From positions 2,649,890 through 2,713,889 of the forward strand of contig NZ_AP019797.1 in NCBI RefSeq assembly GCF_009936275.1: 64,000 bases of DNA. Direction: 5' to 3'. Origin of the DNA: Rhodothermus marinus (GTDB lineage Bacteria; Bacteroidota; Rhodothermia; Rhodothermales; Rhodothermaceae). Shown here piece by piece: positions 34,272 through 43,335 of this stretch; the first letter of the stretch is position 1; each line of letters opens with the position of its first letter. The notes beneath the pieces were generated by a model that did not search any database, was not told the origin of the DNA, and saw nothing but the letters and a program-made list of their open reading frames with translations. Position numbers and translations under genes: made by a program.

Positions 34272-34301
34272 TTGACGGATTCCCTTGTGCTTCGGTACTT
34301 T
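34272..34301 (+). promoter_or_regulatory. Candidate promoter of the nuo operon
   Basis: TTGACG-N18-TACTTT. The -35 is at 34272-34277 and the -10 at 34296-34301. It lies 39 bases upstream of the nuoA ATG at 34341, with no other gene between purB and nuoA. Confidence 0.55.
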
Positions 34302-34340
34302 GGAATGTTTAAGGGTGCACTCGGACATGCAGAGACCGCC

Positions 34341-34712
34341 ATGCTGACCGATTTTCTTCCGCTGTTTATCATGATCGTGCTGGCCGCCGGGCTGGCCTTT
34401 TCACTACTCAAGCTGGCCGAAATCCTGGGGCCGCACCGTCCCAACCCCATCAAGCGCATGCCCTACGAAAGCGGCATGGACCCGGTGGGGACGGCCCGCG
34501 AGCGCTACACGGTGAAGTTCTATCTGGTGGCCATGATCTTCATCGTGTTCGACGTGGAGATCGTTTTCCTGTACCCGTGGGCCGTCAGTTACCGGGATTT
34601 TCTGGAGGCCGGTGCGGGTCTGGGCGTGCTGGCGGTCGTTGTGTTTTTCCTGATCATTCTGGCCGTCGGCCTGCTCTACGACATCAAAAAGGGCGGGCTG
34701 GAGTTCGACTGA
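34341..34712 (+). CDS. nuoA: NADH-quinone oxidoreductase subunit A
   Basis: A 123-residue subunit of the complex I membrane domain. Three membrane helices are visible, with the conserved cytoplasmic loop MPYESGMDPVGTARERYTVK and FDVEIVFLYPWA between helices 1 and 2. ATG 34341 begins the usual LTDFLPLFIMIV. Upstream alternatives at 34305 or the TTG at 34272 would put the start on or beside the candidate promoter, so I prefer 34341. First gene of the nuo operon. Confidence 0.9.
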   Translation: MLTDFLPLFIMIVLAAGLAFSLLKLAEILGPHRPNPIKRMPYESGMDPVGTARERYTVKFYLVAMIFIVFDVEIVFLYPWAVSYRDFLEAGAGLGVLAVVVFFLIILAVGLLYDIKKGGLEFD

Positions 34713-34790
34713 AAGGGACCTCCGAAACAGCCCGTGCCCTGGCTCATTAAACCCGTCCGGACCAGGCCTTGAAACCGACCAAGTTGTCCC

Positions 34791-35375
34791 ATGCTGGATC
34801 TTCGTGAAGGGTTTCTGACAACGCGGCTGGACGTGCTGCTGAACTGGGCGCGCTCCAATTCGCTCATGCCCATGCCGATGGGCCTGGCCTGCTGCGCCAT
34901 CGAGATGATGGCCTTTGCGGGGCCCAAGTACGACGTGGCCCGCTTCGGGAGCGAGGCCATGCGCTTTTCGCCCCGTCAGGCCGACCTGATGATCGTGGCG
35001 GGCTGGTGCACCTACAAGATGGCCCACGCCATTCGCCGGATCTGGGACCAGATGCCCGATCCGAAGTGGTGCATTGCCATGGGTGCCTGTGCGTCGACGG
35101 GCGGCATGCACCGCTGCTACGGCGTGGTGCAGGGCGTCGACAACTTCCTGCCGGTCGACGTCTACATTCCGGGCTGCCCGCCCCGTCCGGAGGCCGTCCT
35201 GCACGCGCTGATGGATATTCAGGAGAAGATTCGTAATGAGTATTCGGTGGCGCTGGATTACGCGAAAGGCGAGCCGCGTCCGCCCGCCCCACCGGCGCGG
35301 CCGCACGTCCTGTCGCCGGAAGGAGACGAGCCGGTGGCACGCGAAGTATTGCACCGGCCGCTGAAGTCGACCTGA
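34791..35375 (+). CDS. nuoB: NADH-quinone oxidoreductase subunit B
   Basis: A 194-residue subunit carrying iron-sulfur cluster N2, the last in the chain before quinone. The ligands are visible: Cys34-Cys35 in [11 protein letters not shown], Cys100 in [10 protein letters not shown] and Cys129 in [10 protein letters not shown]. It forms the Q-module with NuoD. The C-terminal tail past residue 165 ([15 protein letters not shown]) is a lineage-specific extension. Confidence 0.96.
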
Positions 35376-35382
35376 AACTGCC

Positions 35383-36084
35383 ATGGCCGAACAGACCGGA
35401 AACGAACGTCCGAAAACGCCCGAGGCGCTGAAGTTCTACTTCACGCCCGTCGATCCGCCCCGTGGGGATGAACTGAACCCCCACGCCAAGGCGAGCACCT
35501 ACGTGCCCGAGGTGGTGGAAGCCCTGAAGGAGCGCTTTGGCGACGTGATCGAAGAAGTGGAGCTGTACGCGGGCGAGCATACAGTGCGCGTCCGCGCCGA
35601 CAAGATCGTCGAGGTGTGCCGTTTCCTGAAGGAGGAACAGGGCTTCAACTACCTGGCCGACCTGGGCGGCATCGACCGCTTCACCGACGAGGGGCGCTTC
35701 GAGGTGTTCTACAACCTGGTTTCTATCGAGCGGCGCAAGCGCATCCGTCTGAAGGTGCGCGTCGAGGAAGACAACCCGGTGGTGCCTTCGGTGACGTCCG
35801 TCTACCGGGCGGCCAACTGGAACGAGCGCGAATGCTACGACATGTTCGGCATTCGCTTCGAAGGGCACCCGGACCTGCGGCGGATGTACATGCCGGAGGA
35901 CTTCGAGTACCATCCGCTCCGCAAAGAATTTCCGCTGCTGGGCATCCCGGGCTCTCTGCCCCTGCCGCCCCAGACGCCGGGGGGTCCGCTGACGCGCGAC
36001 CCATTCCCACGGGCGCACGGCTACGTACCGCCGCCGGGCTTCGAGGAGCCTCCGGCCGAAGACGAGGAAGTCTCCGAGCATTGA
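35383..36084 (+). CDS. nuoC: NADH-quinone oxidoreductase subunit C
   Basis: A 233-residue NuoC. The core stretch EQGFNYLADLGGIDRF, FEVFYNLVSIERRKRIRLKV and the signature WNERECYDMFGIRFEGHPDL followed by RRMYMPEDFEYHPLRKEFPL are all present. It is a hydrophilic scaffold of the peripheral arm. It is separate from NuoD here (fused in E. coli). Starts 7 bases after nuoB. Confidence 0.96.
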   Translation: MAEQTGNERPKTPEALKFYFTPVDPPRGDELNPHAKASTYVPEVVEALKERFGDVIEEVELYAGEHTVRVRADKIVEVCRFLKEEQGFNYLADLGGIDRFTDEGRFEVFYNLVSIERRKRIRLKVRVEEDNPVVPSVTSVYRAANWNERECYDMFGIRFEGHPDLRRMYMPEDFEYHPLRKEFPLLGIPGSLPLPPQTPGGPLTRDPFPRAHGYVPPPGFEEPPAEDEEVSEH

Positions 36085-36097
36085 GTAAGCGACGACC

Positions 36098-37423
36098 ATG
36101 AGCACGGCGCCAAGCCTTGTAGGACCCGACCGTCACGGCCTGTTCAACTTCTGGCCCCGCCACAACGAGGCCATCTATCGCCGGCTGGAAACCAAGCACG
36201 CCTGGCTGGAAGAACGGCATCGCCCGCCGGGCGGCGACGGGGAGCCCGACCCGCTCGAGCATGAGATGATCCTCAACATCGGGCCCCAGCATCCGGCCAC
36301 GCACGGCGTGCTCCGGTGCATCGTCAAGCTCGACGGCGAGGTCATGGAAAAGTGCGTGCTCGACCTGGGCTACCTGCACCGGGGCCTGGAAAAGGTGGCC
36401 GAGCACAAGACCTACCAGGAGTTCATGCCCTACACCGACCGCATGGACTACCTGTCGCCCTACTCCAACAACGTGGCCTGGTGCCTTGCCGTCGAGAAAG
36501 TGGCCGGCATCGAGGTGCCCGAGCGGGCCCAGTGGATCCGCATGATCATGTGCGAGCTGGCCCGCATCTCCAGCCACCTGCTCTGGCTGGGCGTGGGTCT
36601 GATGGATGCCGGCGCCGTGTCGGTCTTCCTCTGGGCCTTCAAATACCGTGAGGAGATCTACAGCATCTTCGACGAAGTGTGCGGGGCCCGCTTCACCGTC
36701 TCGCACAGCCGCATCGGCGGCGTGGCCTCGGACCTGTCGCCGACGGCCATCGCCATGATCCGCCGCTTTGTGGAAGAATTTCCCGAAGAACTGGCCGGCT
36801 GGGAAAAGATCATCAACCGCAACAAGATCTGGATCGACCGTAACGAAGGCATTGGCGTCCTGACCGCCGAAGAAGCCATCGAACTGGGCGTTACGGGCCC
36901 CAACCTGCGCGGAAGCGGCGTCGATTACGACATTCGTCGCTTCGAGCCCTATCTGAAGTACGACGAGGTGGACTTCAACATCCCCATTCGCACCGAAGGC
37001 GACAGCCTGGCCCGGTACTTCGTGCGGATGGAAGAAATGAAGGAGAGCGTGCGGATCATCCGCCAGTGCCTGGAGCGGCTGCCCGAAGGGCCCATCCGCA
37101 ACGACAACGCCAAGCTGGCCTACCCCTCCAAGGAGGAGGTTTACTACTCCATGGAGGGCATGATTCACGACTTCCTCTATACCGACGTGGGCGTCTGCCC
37201 GCCCAAGGGCGCCCACAGCTACCACGCAATCGAGGCCCCCAAAGGCGAGCTGGGCTTCTATATCATCTCGGATGGCACGGGCAAGCCGTGGCGCGTGCGC
37301 ATCAAAGCACCCAGCTTTTCGAACCTGCAGGGCCTCGAATACATGATGGAAGGCGCCATGATCGGCGACATGGTGATCCTGATCGGGACCGTCGACCCGG
37401 TCATGGGCGAAGCCGACAAGTAA
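36098..37423 (+). CDS. nuoD: NADH-quinone oxidoreductase subunit D
   Basis: A 441-residue NuoD of the quinone site. N-terminal LNIGPQHPATHGVLRCIVKL, containing the HxxxH quinone-headgroup loop, GYLHRGLEKVAEHKTYQEFM, and C-terminal APSFSNLQGLEYMMEGAMIG with VDPVMGEADK. About 50 extra residues precede the conserved start. Fourth gene in the operon. Confidence 0.96.
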   Translation: MSTAPSLVGPDRHGLFNFWPRHNEAIYRRLETKHAWLEERHRPPGGDGEPDPLEHEMILNIGPQHPATHGVLRCIVKLDGEVMEKCVLDLGYLHRGLEKVAEHKTYQEFMPYTDRMDYLSPYSNNVAWCLAVEKVAGIEVPERAQWIRMIMCELARISSHLLWLGVGLMDAGAVSVFLWAFKYREEIYSIFDEVCGARFTVSHSRIGGVASDLSPTAIAMIRRFVEEFPEELAGWEKIINRNKIWIDRNEGIGVLTAEEAIELGVTGPNLRGSGVDYDIRRFEPYLKYDEVDFNIPIRTEGDSLARYFVRMEEMKESVRIIRQCLERLPEGPIRNDNAKLAYPSKEEVYYSMEGMIHDFLYTDVGVCPPKGAHSYHAIEAPKGELGFYIISDGTGKPWRVRIKAPSFSNLQGLEYMMEGAMIGDMVILIGTVDPVMGEADK

Positions 37424-37442
37424 CGACCAACCGGGAAGCCCG

Positions 37443-38117
37443 ATGGCTGACTTTATCAAAAAACCAGTCGTACCACTGCCGGAGTTGCATCCCGAACCCC
37501 AAATTCCGGCCGACCAGCTTTTCTTCACGGAAGAGGAAAAGGCCCAGATTGTCCGCTTCAAGGAGCAGTATCTGGAGCCGGCCGGGGCCGTGATGAAAAC
37601 GCTCTGGCTGGCCCAGGAAAAATTCGGCTTTCTGCCGCCGGAGGTGCTCCAGCTGGTAGCCGACGAACTGGGCATTCCCTATGCCCAGGTTTACGGCGTG
37701 GCTACCTTCTACACCCAGTACTACAAGGAAAGGAAAGGCAAGTACGTGCTGGACGTCTGCACCTGCTTTACCTGCCAGGTGTGCGGCGGCTACGACATCC
37801 TGCACTACCTCGAAGAAAAGCTGGGCATCCACAAAGGCGAAACCACGCCGGACGGCCTGTTCACGCTGCAGGAGGTGGAATGCCTGGGGGCTTGCGGCTC
37901 GGCACCGGTCTTGCAGGTATCCAACGGGCCGTACGTGCACAACCTGACGCCGGAAAAGGTCGATCAACTGCTGGAGGATCTGAAACAGGGCAAACTGCCG
38001 CCCTTCGTTTCGCTCACGCTGCCCCAGGACGAGGCGGAGCTGGGCGGCAACCGGCGCTCGGACGCCGAAGCCGTCGAGTCGTACCGGACCCCGCCGGTCG
38101 CCCACCACACGCGCTGA
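37443..38117 (+). CDS. nuoE: NADH-quinone oxidoreductase subunit E
   Basis: A 224-residue thioredoxin-like [2Fe-2S] subunit (cluster N1a). Ligands Cys106 and Cys111 in DVCTCFTCQ, and Cys147 and Cys151 in VECLGACGSA, match CxxxxC...CxxxC. Two further Cys (108, 114) are unusual. The C-terminal tail from residue 195 is a variable extension. Its stop is followed after 5 bases by the first Uma2 gene instead of nuoF. Confidence 0.95.
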   Translation: MADFIKKPVVPLPELHPEPQIPADQLFFTEEEKAQIVRFKEQYLEPAGAVMKTLWLAQEKFGFLPPEVLQLVADELGIPYAQVYGVATFYTQYYKERKGKYVLDVCTCFTCQVCGGYDILHYLEEKLGIHKGETTPDGLFTLQEVECLGACGSAPVLQVSNGPYVHNLTPEKVDQLLEDLKQGKLPPFVSLTLPQDEAELGGNRRSDAEAVESYRTPPVAHHTR

Positions 38118-38122
38118 GCCGT

Positions 38123-38680
38123 ATGGAGGTGGTGCAGACATATCGCTGGACGCGCGAGGCCTTCGAAAAACTGGCCGAAGTCGGGCTCATCGATCCCGAC
38201 GCCCGCCTCGAACTCATCGACGGCGAAATCCTCCAGAAAATGAGCCCGCAATCGAGTCGCCACGCTGCGGCCATCCGCCGGATTGAAGAAGCGCTTCGGA
38301 GCGTTTTTCCGCTGGATCGATACGACGTGCGTGTACAGTTGCCGCTGGCGCTGGATCCCTACAGTGAGCCTGAGCCCGACGTAGCCGTCGTCGAAGGCAC
38401 CCTCGACGACTACGTCGAGGCGCATCCTTCTTCGGCGGTGCTGGTGGTGGAGGTGGCCGATGCCTCACTGCAGTTCGACCGCACGCGCAAGGCCGCGCTC
38501 TACGCCCGCGCCGGCATTCCCGAATACTGGATCGTCAACCTGCTCGACGGCGTGCTCGAGGTCTATCGCCGACCCGAAGGCGACGCCTACCAGCAGCGCA
38601 TGGTGCTACGCGCCCAGGACCGTGTGCGGCCGCTGGCCCGACCGGAGGTAGAAATCGCGGTGGCCGAACTGTTGCCCTGA
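38123..38680 (+). CDS. Uma2 family (DUF820) putative endonuclease, copy 1
   Basis: A 185-residue Uma2 protein with the PD-(D/E)xK-like core: EPEPDVAVVEG, VLVVEVADASLQFDRTRKAA and YARAGIPEYWIVNLLDG. The family is a putative restriction-endonuclease-like fold abundant in cyanobacteria and some Bacteroidota; activity is not established. Its start 5 bases after nuoE and its stop 2 bases before copy 2 indicate one transcript with the complex I genes. It is nearly identical to copies 2 and 3 at both ends and diverges in the middle (about residues 46-75). Confidence 0.88.
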   Translation: MEVVQTYRWTREAFEKLAEVGLIDPDARLELIDGEILQKMSPQSSRHAAAIRRIEEALRSVFPLDRYDVRVQLPLALDPYSEPEPDVAVVEGTLDDYVEAHPSSAVLVVEVADASLQFDRTRKAALYARAGIPEYWIVNLLDGVLEVYRRPEGDAYQQRMVLRAQDRVRPLARPEVEIAVAELLP

Positions 38681-38682
38681 CG

Positions 38683-39243
38683 ATGATGGAGGTGGTGCAG
38701 ACATATCGCTGGACGCGCGAGGCCTTCGAAAAACTGGCCGAAGTCGGGCTCATTGAACCCGACGCCCGCCTCGAACTCATCGACGGCGAAATCCTCCAGA
38801 AAATGAGCCCGCAATCCAGCCAGCATGCCACGGCCGTCCTGCTGGTCGCCGAGGCATTGCGCTCGATCTTTACCCCACCAGTCTACACGATCCGCGTGCA
38901 GTTGCCGCTGGCGCTGGGTCCCTACAGCGAGCCCGAACCCGACGTGGCCGTCGTCGAGGGTGCGCCGCGTCGGTATCGCGACGAACACCCCTCGTCGGCG
39001 GTGCTGGTGGTGGAGGTGGCCGATGCCTCACTGCAGTTCGACCGCACGCGCAAGGCCGCGCTCTACGCCCGCGCCGGCATTCCCGAATACTGGATCGTCA
39101 ATCTGCTCGACGGCGTGCTCGAGGTCTATCGCCGACCCGAAGGCGACGCCTACCAGCAGCGCCACGTGCTACGCACCCAGGACCATGTGCGGCCGCTGGC
39201 CCGACCGGAGGTAGAAATCGCGGTGGCCGAACTGTTGCCCTGA
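38683..39243 (+). CDS. Uma2 family (DUF820) putative endonuclease, copy 2
   Basis: A 186-residue Uma2 protein. Constant ends as in copies 1 and 3 (VQTYRWTREAFEKLAEVGLI; YARAGIPEYWIVNLLDG; PLARPEVEIAVAELLP). Its own middle is VLLVAEALRSIFTPPVYTIR and GAPRRYRDEHP. The active-site-like residues (PDVAVVE, EVADAS, RTRKAALYA) are all retained, so it looks intact. Two adjacent ATG codons (38683, 38686) are possible starts. Embedded in the nuo operon. Confidence 0.87.
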   Translation: MMEVVQTYRWTREAFEKLAEVGLIEPDARLELIDGEILQKMSPQSSQHATAVLLVAEALRSIFTPPVYTIRVQLPLALGPYSEPEPDVAVVEGAPRRYRDEHPSSAVLVVEVADASLQFDRTRKAALYARAGIPEYWIVNLLDGVLEVYRRPEGDAYQQRHVLRTQDHVRPLARPEVEIAVAELLP

Positions 39244-39245
39244 CG

Positions 39246-39815
39246 ATGATGGAGGCGGTGCAGACATATCGCTGGACGCGTGAGGCCTTCGAAAAACTGG
39301 CCGAAGTCGGGCTCATCGATCCCGACGCCCGCCTCGAACTCATCGACGGCGAAATCCTCCAGAAAATGAGCCCGCAAAGCGCCCGTCATTTTACCGCGGT
39401 GCTTAAAACGGAAGAAGCACTGCGCACGATTTTTGGTCCCGGTTACGTTGTGCGGGTTCAGGGTCCGCTGGCGCTTGGTCCCTACAGTGAGCCTGAGCCC
39501 GACGTAGCCGTCGTCGAAGGTACCATCGACGACTACGTCGAGGCGCATCCTTCGACGGCGGTGCTGGTGGTGGAGGTGGCCGATGCCTCGCTGCAGTTCG
39601 ACCGCACGCGCAAGGCCGCGCTCTACGCCCGTGCCGGCATTCCCGAATACTGGATCGTCAACCTCCTCGACGGTGTGCTTGAAGTCCATCGCCGACCTGA
39701 AGGCGACGCCTACCAGCAGCGCATGGTGCTGGCACCGCACGAACAGATTGTGCCCCTGGCGCGGCCCGGGGCTTCCCTTGAAGTTGCCCGGTTGTTTCCT
39801 GAATCTCGCGCTTAA
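39246..39815 (+). CDS. Uma2 family (DUF820) putative endonuclease, copy 3
   Basis: A 189-residue Uma2 protein. It is the most divergent of the three: middle part AVLKTEEALRTIFGPGYVVR and C-terminus APHEQIVPLARPGASLEVAR-LFPESRA, but the N-terminal 45 residues and the PDVAVVEGTIDDYVEAHPST to NLLDGVLEV block match copy 1 closely. Catalytic-type residues are intact. It ends 12 bases before the nuoF ATG, so it is the last inserted gene before the complex I set resumes. Confidence 0.87.
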   Translation: MMEAVQTYRWTREAFEKLAEVGLIDPDARLELIDGEILQKMSPQSARHFTAVLKTEEALRTIFGPGYVVRVQGPLALGPYSEPEPDVAVVEGTIDDYVEAHPSTAVLVVEVADASLQFDRTRKAALYARAGIPEYWIVNLLDGVLEVHRRPEGDAYQQRMVLAPHEQIVPLARPGASLEVARLFPESRA

Positions 39816-39827
39816 CCTGCTGTGCAT

Positions 39828-41159
39828 ATGGCTACGAACGGAGCCCAGAGTAAAGCCGGAGACTGGCGGAATCACAAGCGGGTGCTGCTCCCACCCATTC
39901 GGGATCTGCACCGGCTGGAAGTCTACGAGGAGCACGGAGGGTACCAGACCCTGCGCGAAGTGCTGACCTCCGACCGCTGGGATCCCAAGTCGGTCATCGA
40001 AGAAGTCAAAAAAAGCAAGCTGCGCGGACGGGGCGGCGCCAGCTTCCCCACCGGGCTGAAGTGGAGCTTCATGCCCCCGGTGGACGATCGGCCCCGCTTC
40101 CTGTGCTGCAACGGCGACGAAAGCGAGCCGGGCACGTTCAAGGACCGCCAGCTCATGGAGTTCAATCCCCACCAGATTTTCGAGGGGATTCTGATTGCCT
40201 GCTACGCCATGTCGGTGCGCACGTGCTACCTGTATGTGCGCGGCGAATATGCCCGGTGGATCGAGCACATGGAGCGGGAGCTGGAAAAGCTCTACGCCAA
40301 AGGCTACGTGGGGAAGAACATTATGGGCACGGACTTCTCGGCCGACATTGTGATCCACAAGGGAGCCGGTGCCTACATCTGCGGCGAGGAGTCCAGCCTG
40401 ATGGAGTCGGTCGAAGGCAAGCGGGCCTACCCGCGCATCAAGCCGCCGTTTCCGGCCCAGCGGGGCCTGTGGGGCTACCCCACCACGATCAACAACGTGG
40501 AAACGCTGGCGAACGTCCCGCTCATTCTGCGCAACGGTGGTGAATGGTTTGCCTCTATCGGCGCGCCCAACCACCCCGGCCCGGTGCTCTATGGTATCTC
40601 GGGCCACGTCAACCGCCCCGGCGTCTACGAATATCCCACTGGTATGTTGATCACCGATCTGATCTACGAGGTAGCCGGTGGCATCCGCGGAGGCAAAAAG
40701 CTCAAGGCCGTCATCCCGGGCGGAAGCTCCACGCCGCCCCTGCGCGCCGACATGATCGACGGCGTGACGATGGACGCCGAGTCGCTGCGCGAGGCCGGTT
40801 CGATGATGGGCACGGCCGGCCTGCTCGTGCTCGACGAAGACACCGATATGGTTTCGTGGCTGCGGCGCGTGGCGCACTTCTACGCGCATGAAAGCTGCGG
40901 CCAGTGCACCCCCTGCCGTGAAGGCACCGGCTGGCTCGAAAACATCCTCACGCGCATCGACGAGGGCGAAGGCCGCCTGCGCGACCTGGACCTGCTGCTG
41001 GACCTGTGCGACCAGATGGAAGGCCGCACGGTCTGCGCCCTGGCCGACGCCGCCGCCTGGCCTGTACGCTACACCATCCTTCGCTTCCGCGAAGAGTTCG
41101 AGGCCAAGTGCAAGCCGAGCCTGGTCCCGACGGGCATCGACCTGGCACCAACCCGGTAA
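39828..41159 (+). CDS. nuoF: NADH-quinone oxidoreductase subunit F
   Basis: A 443-residue NADH- and FMN-binding subunit. FMN/NADH motifs GRGGASFPTGLKWSF, CNGDESEPGTFKDR and GAGAYICGEESSLMESVEGK are present. Cluster N3 ligands are Cys357, Cys360 and Cys363 in ESCGQCTPCREG, with a later Cys in TVCALAD. ATG 39828 is chosen; a GTG two codons upstream is also in frame. It is separated from nuoE by three Uma2 genes. Confidence 0.95.
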   Translation: MATNGAQSKAGDWRNHKRVLLPPIRDLHRLEVYEEHGGYQTLREVLTSDRWDPKSVIEEVKKSKLRGRGGASFPTGLKWSFMPPVDDRPRFLCCNGDESEPGTFKDRQLMEFNPHQIFEGILIACYAMSVRTCYLYVRGEYARWIEHMERELEKLYAKGYVGKNIMGTDFSADIVIHKGAGAYICGEESSLMESVEGKRAYPRIKPPFPAQRGLWGYPTTINNVETLANVPLILRNGGEWFASIGAPNHPGPVLYGISGHVNRPGVYEYPTGMLITDLIYEVAGGIRGGKKLKAVIPGGSSTPPLRADMIDGVTMDAESLREAGSMMGTAGLLVLDEDTDMVSWLRRVAHFYAHESCGQCTPCREGTGWLENILTRIDEGEGRLRDLDLLLDLCDQMEGRTVCALADAAAWPVRYTILRFREEFEAKCKPSLVPTGIDLAPTR

Positions 41160-41163
41160 ACCC

Positions 41164-41598
41164 ATGCGGCATTCCTCCTACCCACCGTCGCTGGACGACC
41201 TGCTCTTCGAGGAAACGGTGCGGGCTCTGCTGCCCGACCTCGGGGAAGTGGGGCTGCGCATGCCGATGGATGAGTTGCCCAAGTTTCTGGATCCGGACTT
41301 CGTCGAGCGGCGCATGAATCAACTGCACCGCTACCGGGCCTGGGCCATGGCGGGCATGATTTTCGGCTTTCTGGCCATCGTGCTGTTGCTGGTGGCGGCG
41401 ATCTTTCGCCTTGCGCTCCCCGACTATGTGCTGTTTCCGACCTCGTTTCTGTCGCTTTCCGCCCCGTACTGGGGCTTCCGCTATGCCCGACTGGGCTACT
41501 TCCTGTACGCCTACCGAATGCTCAACCACTTTGTCTATGACCTGATCGTTTATAAAGACTACCGTCCGGCGCTCCATCATCTGATCGAACAAACCTGA
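41164..41598 (+). CDS. Small membrane protein between nuoF and nuoG
   Basis: A 144-residue protein with an acidic soluble N-terminus (LDDLLFEETVRALLPDLGEV) and two membrane helices: one around AMAGMIFGFLAIVLLLVAAI and one around PDYVLFPTSFLSLSAPYWGF. The C-terminal part is Tyr-rich (YARLGYFLYAYRMLNHFVYD). No known complex I subunit or family is recognised. It begins 4 bases after the nuoF stop and ends 6 bases before nuoG, so it is cotranscribed and probably stoichiometric with them. A role in membrane anchoring or assembly is speculation. Confidence 0.75.
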   Translation: MRHSSYPPSLDDLLFEETVRALLPDLGEVGLRMPMDELPKFLDPDFVERRMNQLHRYRAWAMAGMIFGFLAIVLLLVAAIFRLALPDYVLFPTSFLSLSAPYWGFRYARLGYFLYAYRMLNHFVYDLIVYKDYRPALHHLIEQT

Positions 41599-41604
41599 AC
41601 GACC

Positions 41605-43335
41605 ATGCCCCGGATTACCATAGACGGTACGGTTTACGAATTCGAAGGGCGGCCCAAGCTGCTGCAGTTCTGCCTGGACCACGGCATCGAGCTGCCCCAT
41701 TTCTGCTACCACCCGGCGCTGTCGATTCCGGCCAACTGTCGCCAGTGCCTGGTGGAAGTGGGCATGCCGGTCATCGACCGGGAGACCGGCAAACCGAAGC
41801 TCGACGAAAACGGCCAGCCCGTCATCCAGTTCATGCCCAAGCTCCAGACGAGCTGCTCGCTCGACATGGCCGACGGGATGGTCGTCAAAACGCATCGCAC
41901 CAGCGAGAAGGTGGCGCGCGCCCAGCGCGACAACCTGGAGTTTCTATTGATCAACCACCCGCTCGACTGCCCGATCTGCGATCAGGCCGGCAAATGTCCG
42001 CTCCAGATTCAGGCCTACAAGTACGGGCCCGAAGGCTCCCGCTTCGAGTTTCTCAAGGTGCACAAGCCCAAGCGGGTGAAGCTGGGCCCCCGCGTCATGC
42101 TCGACGCCGAGCGGTGCATCAACTGCACGCGCTGCGTGCGTTTCACCGACGAAATCTCCAAAAGCCACCAGCTCACCATCATCGAGCGCGGGGTCAGGAA
42201 CTACCCGATCACACCGCCCGGCGTGGAGTTCGATGATCCCTACTCCATGAACGTGATCGACCTGTGCCCGGTGGGCGCGCTGACGTCCATCGACGCCCGC
42301 TTCAAGGCGCGTCCCTGGGAGATGAGCGCCACGCCCTCGATCACGATCACGAACGCAAAAGGCTCCAACTGCTACTACTGGGTGCGCGACAACCTGATCG
42401 TCGAGATCACGGCGCGCGCCAACGCGGCCGTCAACGGCTACTGGCTCCCCGACGAAGACCGGCTCGACTACCATCGCTTCAACGAAAACCGCCCGGACGG
42501 CCCCGAGGTGCGTCGCGACGGTCGGCTCGTGCGCGTGCGCTGGGAAGAAGCCTACGACCGAGCGGCCGAGCTGCTTGCGGGCATCGACGGCCGCCGCATC
42601 CTGTTCCTGGGCTCGGCCTACGCGACCGTCGAGGACAACTACCTGCTCAAGCGGCTGGCCGAGGCACTGGGCGCCGACACGCCCGTTTACATTCCCCACA
42701 TCGAGCCCGGCCATGGCGACGGCTGGCTCCGCACCGACGACCGCACGCCCAACGCCCAGGGTTGCCAGCGACTGGGTATCCTGCCCGTCGACGAAGCCCT
42801 TGTGCGGAACCGCCTCGAAAGCGGCGACATCCAGGCGGTGTACGTGCTCGAAGACGATCCGGTCGGCTCCGGGCTCTTCACGGCCGAGGCGCTGGCCGAC
42901 ATTCCCGTCATCCTGCACTACTACAACACGACCAACCAGACGCTGGCCGTGGCCGACGTGGCGCTCCCGGCCGCCACGGTGGTCGAGACTGTCGGGACCT
43001 ACGTCAACTGCGATGGGCATGCCCAGCGCGTGCGCCCGGCCAAAGCCATCCGCACGGTCAACCGCGTGTTGATGCAGGAAATCGGCAAAAGCCGCCTGGA
43101 CCAGCACGGTACGCCCTACGACCGCTGGTACAACGAAAAGCACCAGGTGGACTGCAAGCCCAGCTGGGAAATCCTGCCCGAGGTAGCCGAACGGCTGGGC
43201 CATCCGCTCCGCTACAAGGGCCCGAAGTACATCATGCAGGAGATCGCCGAGACGATCCCGGCCTTTGCCGGCGCCACCTACGAGGCGATGGGCCTGGAGG
43301 GCGTCCGCCTTGCCGAGATCGGCGCCGAGGTGTAG
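41605..43335 (+). CDS. nuoG: NADH-quinone oxidoreductase subunit G, short form
   Basis: A 576-residue NuoG. N-terminal [2Fe-2S] ligands Cys34, Cys45, Cys48, Cys84; the His-Cys3 cluster in HPLDCPICDQAGKCPLQ (His118, Cys122, Cys125, Cys131); and the [4Fe-4S] ligands Cys171, Cys174, Cys177 plus Cys221 in DLCPVGAL. The molybdopterin-oxidoreductase-like domain is shortened relative to the 680-900 residues of most NuoG, and the extra N7 cluster motif is not seen. The terminator at 43361 ends the operon here. Confidence 0.94.
   Translation: MPRITIDGTVYEFEGRPKLLQFCLDHGIELPHFCYHPALSIPANCRQCLVEVGMPVIDRETGKPKLDENGQPVIQFMPKLQTSCSLDMADGMVVKTHRTSEKVARAQRDNLEFLLINHPLDCPICDQAGKCPLQIQAYKYGPEGSRFEFLKVHKPKRVKLGPRVMLDAERCINCTRCVRFTDEISKSHQLTIIERGVRNYPITPPGVEFDDPYSMNVIDLCPVGALTSIDARFKARPWEMSATPSITITNAKGSNCYYWVRDNLIVEITARANAAVNGYWLPDEDRLDYHRFNENRPDGPEVRRDGRLVRVRWEEAYDRAAELLAGIDGRRILFLGSAYATVEDNYLLKRLAEALGADTPVYIPHIEPGHGDGWLRTDDRTPNAQGCQRLGILPVDEALVRNRLESGDIQAVYVLEDDPVGSGLFTAEALADIPVILHYYNTTNQTLAVADVALPAATVVETVGTYVNCDGHAQRVRPAKAIRTVNRVLMQEIGKSRLDQHGTPYDRWYNEKHQVDCKPSWEILPEVAERLGHPLRYKGPKYIMQEIAETIPAFAGATYEAMGLEGVRLAEIGAEV

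Follow-up and report, generated by a model that had tools for sequence, protein, structure and literature searches.

Uma2 (DUF820; PF05685, COG4636) is a large protein family, expanded in cyanobacteria and in some thermophiles, for which we know of no established function. Several members have been solved (3ot2, 1wdj, 6okh and 9y1l), and two have been described within clusters of redox genes. In Synechocystis, the DUF820 gene sll1222 lies between hoxF and hoxU and is carried on the eight-gene transcript of the diaphorase/hydrogenase operon hoxEFUYH, adjoining HoxF, a homologue of NuoF (PMC3933540, PMC4963859). In Aquifex aeolicus, the Uma2 gene aq_1194 belongs to the PFOR gene cluster, but its protein was hardly detected and was absent from the PFOR complex (PMC10052474).

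Here we analysed a window of 64,000 nucleotides from the single-contig, 3.43-Mb genome of Rhodothermus marinus (contig NZ_AP019797.1), in which three tandem Uma2 genes stand between nuoE and nuoF of the operon for respiratory complex I. As with aq_1194, the genes reside in a core iron-sulphur redox cluster, although the enzyme is a different one. They also resemble sll1222 in adjoining a nuoF-type gene; sll1222 differs, however, in being a single copy of a distant subfamily at the F-U junction, the equivalent of F-G. The triplet shares the sequence family, the fold and the acidic and lysine residues of Uma2 at large but, within the order, its subfamily is confined to one operon junction, where it forms here a mosaic tandem array. 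All three copies match PDC-S03 of PADLOC (E 1e-15 to 1e-19), a candidate single-gene phage defence family that remains a candidate only, and the matching genes here have no defence neighbours. Uma2 genes in hox and PFOR clusters were thus already described. The complex I genes of R. marinus were reportedly assigned by Melo et al. in 2005 to two operons, with extra genes in the second; in the literature library that we searched, no article dealt with which genes make up the Rhodothermus nuo operon.

Three Uma2 genes between nuoE and nuoF

The operon runs nuoA, B, C, D, E, three Uma2 genes, nuoF, a putative membrane-protein gene and nuoG, all in the same direction (Table 1). The Uma2 genes are intact and, as the first-pass annotation had proposed, in frame; the gaps it had read from nuoE through the three copies to nuoF (5, 2, 2 and 12 bp) were borne out, the last shrinking to 6 bp when measured to the GTG rather than to the ATG of nuoF. 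It had seen no promoter or terminator; indeed, scanning positions 37300-40300 returned no sigma-70-like promoter (0.5 expected) and, on the + strand, no terminator-like site. That nuoE and nuoF are usually adjacent or nearly so also proved correct: about 17-110 bp separate them in most relatives, where a putative two-helix membrane-protein gene often occupies the gap. Residence in the operon therefore stands, by its spacing, its lack of signals and its old, subfamily-specific locus, but the annotation's description of it as unusual needs softening in view of Synechocystis hox and Aquifex PFOR. An assembly artefact is unlikely because the genome is a single contig; moreover, a second species (G004) carries the triplet too.

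Table 1. Features of the nuo operon and of the Uma2 triplet (window positions)
Feature	Position	Strand	Basis or remark
nuoA, nuoB, nuoC, nuoD	34272..37423	+	Pfam; upstream of nuoE, same direction
nuoE (24-kDa subunit)	37443..38117	+	Pfam 2Fe-2S_thioredx E 2e-49; NCBIfam nuoE_fam above cut-off
Uma2 copy 1, 185 aa	38123..38680	+	PF05685 115.7 bits; AlphaFold2 model pLDDT 93
Variable segment of copy 1 (codons 46-78), type 1	38258..38356	+	dN/dS-window contrast
Uma2 copy 2, 186 aa	38683..39243	+	PF05685 121.9 bits; 86% identity with copy 1
Variable segment of copy 2, type 2, as in G004 copy 1	38821..38919	+	windowed identity
Uma2 copy 3, 189 aa	39246..39815	+	PF05685 107.2 bits; 82% identity with copy 1
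Variable segment of copy 3, type 3, nearest G003 single copy	39384..39479	+	windowed identity
nuoF (51-kDa flavoprotein subunit)	39828..41159	+	PF01512 and PF10589; alternative GTG start 39822
Putative membrane protein, 144 aa, nuoF-nuoG gap	41164..41598	+	without Pfam or NCBIfam match
nuoG	41605..43335	+	Pfam

The membrane-protein gene between nuoF and nuoG has a counterpart, 82% identical, in another Rhodothermus genome (G002). The two-helix gene of the nuoE-nuoF gap (LTRRERRVKxILLKELE...) was seen at L074, L077, L089 and L094 and possibly at L082, L086 and L095; comparison of the E-F and F-G membrane-protein genes revealed no detectable homology.

All three products belong to PF05685 (107-122 bits against a cut-off of 27), the match covering profile positions 2-171 of 172. 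Copy 1 was modelled with AlphaFold2 (pLDDT 93.1), and the best Foldseek matches of the model were the solved DUF820 structures 9y1l (4.9e-11), 6okh (1e-10), 3ot2 (8.9e-9) and 1wdj (3.5e-8); it is predicted to adopt a PD-(D/E)xK-type fold like theirs. The acidic and lysine residues that the annotation had noted in every copy (D86, E110 and K123 in copy 1) are indeed kept by all three, align with the PD-(D/E)xK set and are invariant in 47 Uma2 sequences, the lysine being displaced from the classic ExK spacing here as elsewhere in the Uma2 alignment. From fold and residues, we infer that the triplet encodes putative nucleases. Beside it we found no methyltransferase or defence gene, its neighbours being nuo genes and the one membrane-protein gene; a restriction-modification system was rejected, as no cognate DNA methyltransferase adjoins the nuclease genes.

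Distribution and descent of the same-site subfamily

We compared 114 genomes of the order Rhodothermales, one per species, 99 of them with a nuoF match; the nuoE-F-G region was read directly in about 75 of the 99 and the remaining ~24 were covered by profile search only, many relatives being draft assemblies, where tandem copies may have been merged or truncated. An intact Uma2 gene of the same subfamily lies directly upstream of nuoF in 11 of the 114 genomes, belonging to six families: the present genome (G000), G003, G004, G005, G006 (Rhodothermus), G016, G012 (Roseithermus sacchariphilus), G011, G024, G026 and G074. A decayed copy is found in G002 and an empty gap of 150 bp in G001. Three copies are present only in G000 and G004, and a single copy within the contig in G003 and G006; in G005 the contig ends at the Uma2 gene, so that at least one copy is present there. 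When the whole order was searched with a subfamily profile, all 15 genes scoring above 288 bits (15/15) were at this site and the next best, at 240 bits, was elsewhere; the profile was built from 14 of those 15, the fair case being G074, which was left out of it and scored 288.6 bits.

The first-pass annotation had considered that the triplet might be a recent, neutral insertion, absent from other strains with an intact nuoE-nuoF junction. The triplet is in fact present in a second species, and the single copies across six families, together with the purifying selection described below, speak against neutrality; an insertion at the same site in six families rules out a recent event. The Uma2 genes would thus be old, selected passengers rather than a recent accident, since the site is occupied by this gene family in related bacteria too.

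A quick-method tree of 113 Uma2 proteins places the nuo-linked genes (n=15) in one cluster (SH-aLRT 87), apart from the other Uma2 genes of the same genomes; a single Latescibacteria gene shares the cluster's unresolved fork. In a smaller test, the free Uma2 tree did not hold the nuo-linked genes together, but the difference was not significant and their monophyly was not rejected (AU p 0.30 and 0.42). Uma2 identity rises with that of the nuo proteins (r 0.49, Mantel p 0.01). Strict vertical descent had to be abandoned: the full species topology was rejected (AU p 0.005), descent was kept only in a soft form, and the softened topology was rejected as well (AU p 0.035). Mapped on the nuo tree, the presence of Uma2 requires at least six or seven changes. 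Because of the shared position and the tree, the simplest account would be one old insertion that was lost many times, overlaid by a measure of exchange or recombination. Since a strictly species-like Uma2 topology is rejected, some horizontal exchange, recombination within the genes or more than one insertion is likely, and repeated site-directed insertion is possible.

Such site-directed insertion would be expected of a selfish nuclease of the free-standing, homing-like kind, which would recognise the nuoE-nuoF junction where it is empty, be copied into it, decay and be lost, in repeated rounds. The confinement of the subfamily to one site, its scattered presence with the many changes counted above, the decayed and empty sites within one genus and the weak conflict between gene tree and species tree are all consistent with this cycle. 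However, neither a target site nor an intron or intein was found, nor any pair of otherwise identical junctions of which one had recently gained the gene; homing also leaves the tandem triplication unexplained, and other Uma2 subfamilies sit elsewhere. We therefore hold it to be a long shot.

Selection, mosaic copies and in-frame decay

Nei-Gojobori dN/dS is 0.15-0.33 for orthologues both within the genus and between families. Between G000 and G004, pN is 0.005 for nuoF, as against a dN of 0.025-0.08 for Uma2; by these estimates Uma2 evolves several times faster than nuoF, yet is under constraint.

Divergence is unevenly spread along the copies of the present genome. At the DNA level, codons 1-45 and most of codons 105-135 are 93-100% identical between copies, whereas codons 46-75 are only 51-61% identical. 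Likewise, dS between copy 1 and the others is 0.05-0.07 in codons 1-45 but reaches 1.5-1.9, near saturation, in codons 46-78 (dN 0.42 and dS 1.49 to copy 2; 0.38 and 1.94 to copy 3). In none of the three copy pairs did 2000 shuffles reach the longest run of identity, which measures 57 to 107 bases. The variable segments also cross species: that of copy 2 has 100% windowed identity to G004 copy 1 (51-57% to other types), and that of copy 3 is 64-68% identical to G003 (48-61% to other copies). Copy 1 here pairs with G004 copy 2 and copy 2 here with G004 copy 1. Gene segments have evidently been exchanged between copies and between species, because the ends are near-identical while codons 46-78 are synonymously near-saturated. 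For copy 3, comparison of G000 with G004 gives a synonymous proportion of 0.76-0.78 across the variable segment, as against 0.07-0.08 in codons 1-40 of the same pair and 0.09-0.16 in nuoE and nuoF; judging from this excess, the segment was most likely replaced in one of the two genomes since the species split. It spans helix 45-61 and strand 67-71 of the AlphaFold2 model; a part in setting specificity would be a guess. Positive selection in the segment was rejected: its divergence appears old rather than driven, since dN/dS is about 0.2-0.3 there.

The decayed copy of G002 (L068 5518-5991) carries deletions of 18, 3, 6 and 69 nt, all multiples of three. The ELIDGE stretch is missing from it, as is the part that carries the catalytic lysine, and its dN is raised; beginning at the original start, a frame of 157 aa has nevertheless stayed open. 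Parsimony puts about 95 substitutions on this branch, for which a simple simulation gives a probability of roughly 0.1 of meeting no stop. That of no stop together with four in-frame deletions under neutrality is about 0.001 (0.001-0.004 over 40-100 substitutions), an approximate figure as a modern relative served as ancestor and indels were taken as independent. The natural reading is that the open frame would be needed for translation into nuoF, rather than the nuclease itself; alternatively, G002 may retain a non-catalytic protein.

These data bear on whether the Uma2 genes could be inert hitchhikers, tolerated through their in-frame, tight spacing. Their patchy presence would fit, nothing ties them to complex I, and G002 indicates that the gene can be tolerated after losing its catalytic core. 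However, the dN/dS values hold within and between families and the active-site residues are invariant; moreover, it is the copy with the lost core that shows raised dN. Neutral hitchhiking thus seems unlikely to us.

Uma2 beside other redox genes and the role of the triplet

A second Uma2 subfamily occupies the nuoF-nuoG gap of six genomes that we take to be Salinibacter-like (G037, G049, G085, G086, G089 and G090). Its members are 52-84% identical to one another, have no significant match to copy 1 and reach about 25% identity at most with the E-F subfamily. They too have conserved ends and a more divergent middle (L082, L083, L302, L303, L305 and L306). In cyanobacteria, a Uma2 gene stood between hoxF and hoxU in 3 of 40 sampled HoxF loci; the three form one related group (60-87% identical) and are 23-36% identical to copy 1. 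By chance, roughly 1-2 would be expected in 40 loci, a rough figure based on a lower bound of about 45 Uma2 genes per genome, and the observed count is not clearly above it; a general enrichment of Uma2 beside cyanobacterial HoxF was rejected.

Two further arrangements were noted. The present genome contains a second tandem Uma2 pair (G000:C1:1470751-1471841, L102) that follows closely on a cupredoxin gene and a multicopper-oxidase-like one; the pair is also found in G004 and is about 41-43% identical to the nuo copies. On an Armatimonadetes contig (L128 3027-5552), two Uma2 genes are divergent from an adjoining nuoF homologue.

Capture beside the 51-kDa gene, time and again, might mean that Uma2 is functionally tied to the NADH-dehydrogenase module, in NuoEFG assembly, turnover or regulation or as a redox-responsive nuclease. 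Within a single order, nuoF adjoins two unrelated subfamilies, one at the E-F junction (11 genomes) and the other at F-G (six); the homologous hoxF-hoxU junction is sometimes filled, co-transcription being published for sll1222; and in Aquifex a Uma2 gene sits in the PFOR cluster. On the other hand, the nuo operons of most relatives have complex I genes without Uma2, some genomes that carry nuoF lack Uma2 altogether, the hox cases are close to chance and of a single group, and the PFOR complex of Aquifex did not contain the protein. Counting junctions beside nuoF is also post hoc, and we gave it little weight. A complex I subunit or assembly factor would be expected wherever this type of complex I occurs, whereas Uma2 is intact at E-F in 11 genomes and nuoF is present in 99 of 114. 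The annotation had cautioned that the insertion alone shows no functional link; we agree, having found no functional tie to complex I. A role there is possible, but the distribution does not favour it, and we consider the tie quite improbable. In a bolder version, to which we give very little credence, unrelated Uma2 proteins would have been recruited repeatedly next to the NADH-binding flavoprotein gene (nuoE-F, nuoF-G, hoxF-U) since they work with or sense that module, DNA cutting would be linked to respiratory or redox state, and the central helix-strand segment would be swapped to change specificity.

We lean, with slightly better than even confidence, towards the triplet being a co-expressed and selected accessory nuclease, itself putative, held in the nuo operon. 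An ancestor of several Rhodothermales families would have gained a Uma2 gene with a PD-(D/E)xK fold at its nuoE-nuoF junction, the gene staying there as a co-directional member of the operon. Its spacing suggests that it would be translated off the nuo transcript and that, stop and start lying so close, its translation would be coupled to that of nuoF. The product may be an active nuclease, useful in something apart from electron transfer, most likely the cutting of foreign or damaged DNA, and would benefit from always-on expression out of an energy operon; a defence or DNA-processing role is our guess, the one pointer being the match to the candidate defence profile. What may hold it in place is that its removal, or a frameshift in it, could have polar effects on nuoF and nuoG; we take this view because the species without the catalytic core kept the frame open. 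Against this accessory-nuclease reading stand the rejected species topology, the six or seven changes at least and the lack of an adjacent methyltransferase or defence gene.

The nuo operon of Rhodothermales thus offers a Uma2 subfamily kept at one core-operon site, where a natural series runs from triple and single copies to a decayed one and an empty gap. This series is a clean system for asking what Uma2 proteins do and how accessory nucleases survive in essential operons, and the in-frame decay suggests that the operon may limit how an embedded gene can be lost.
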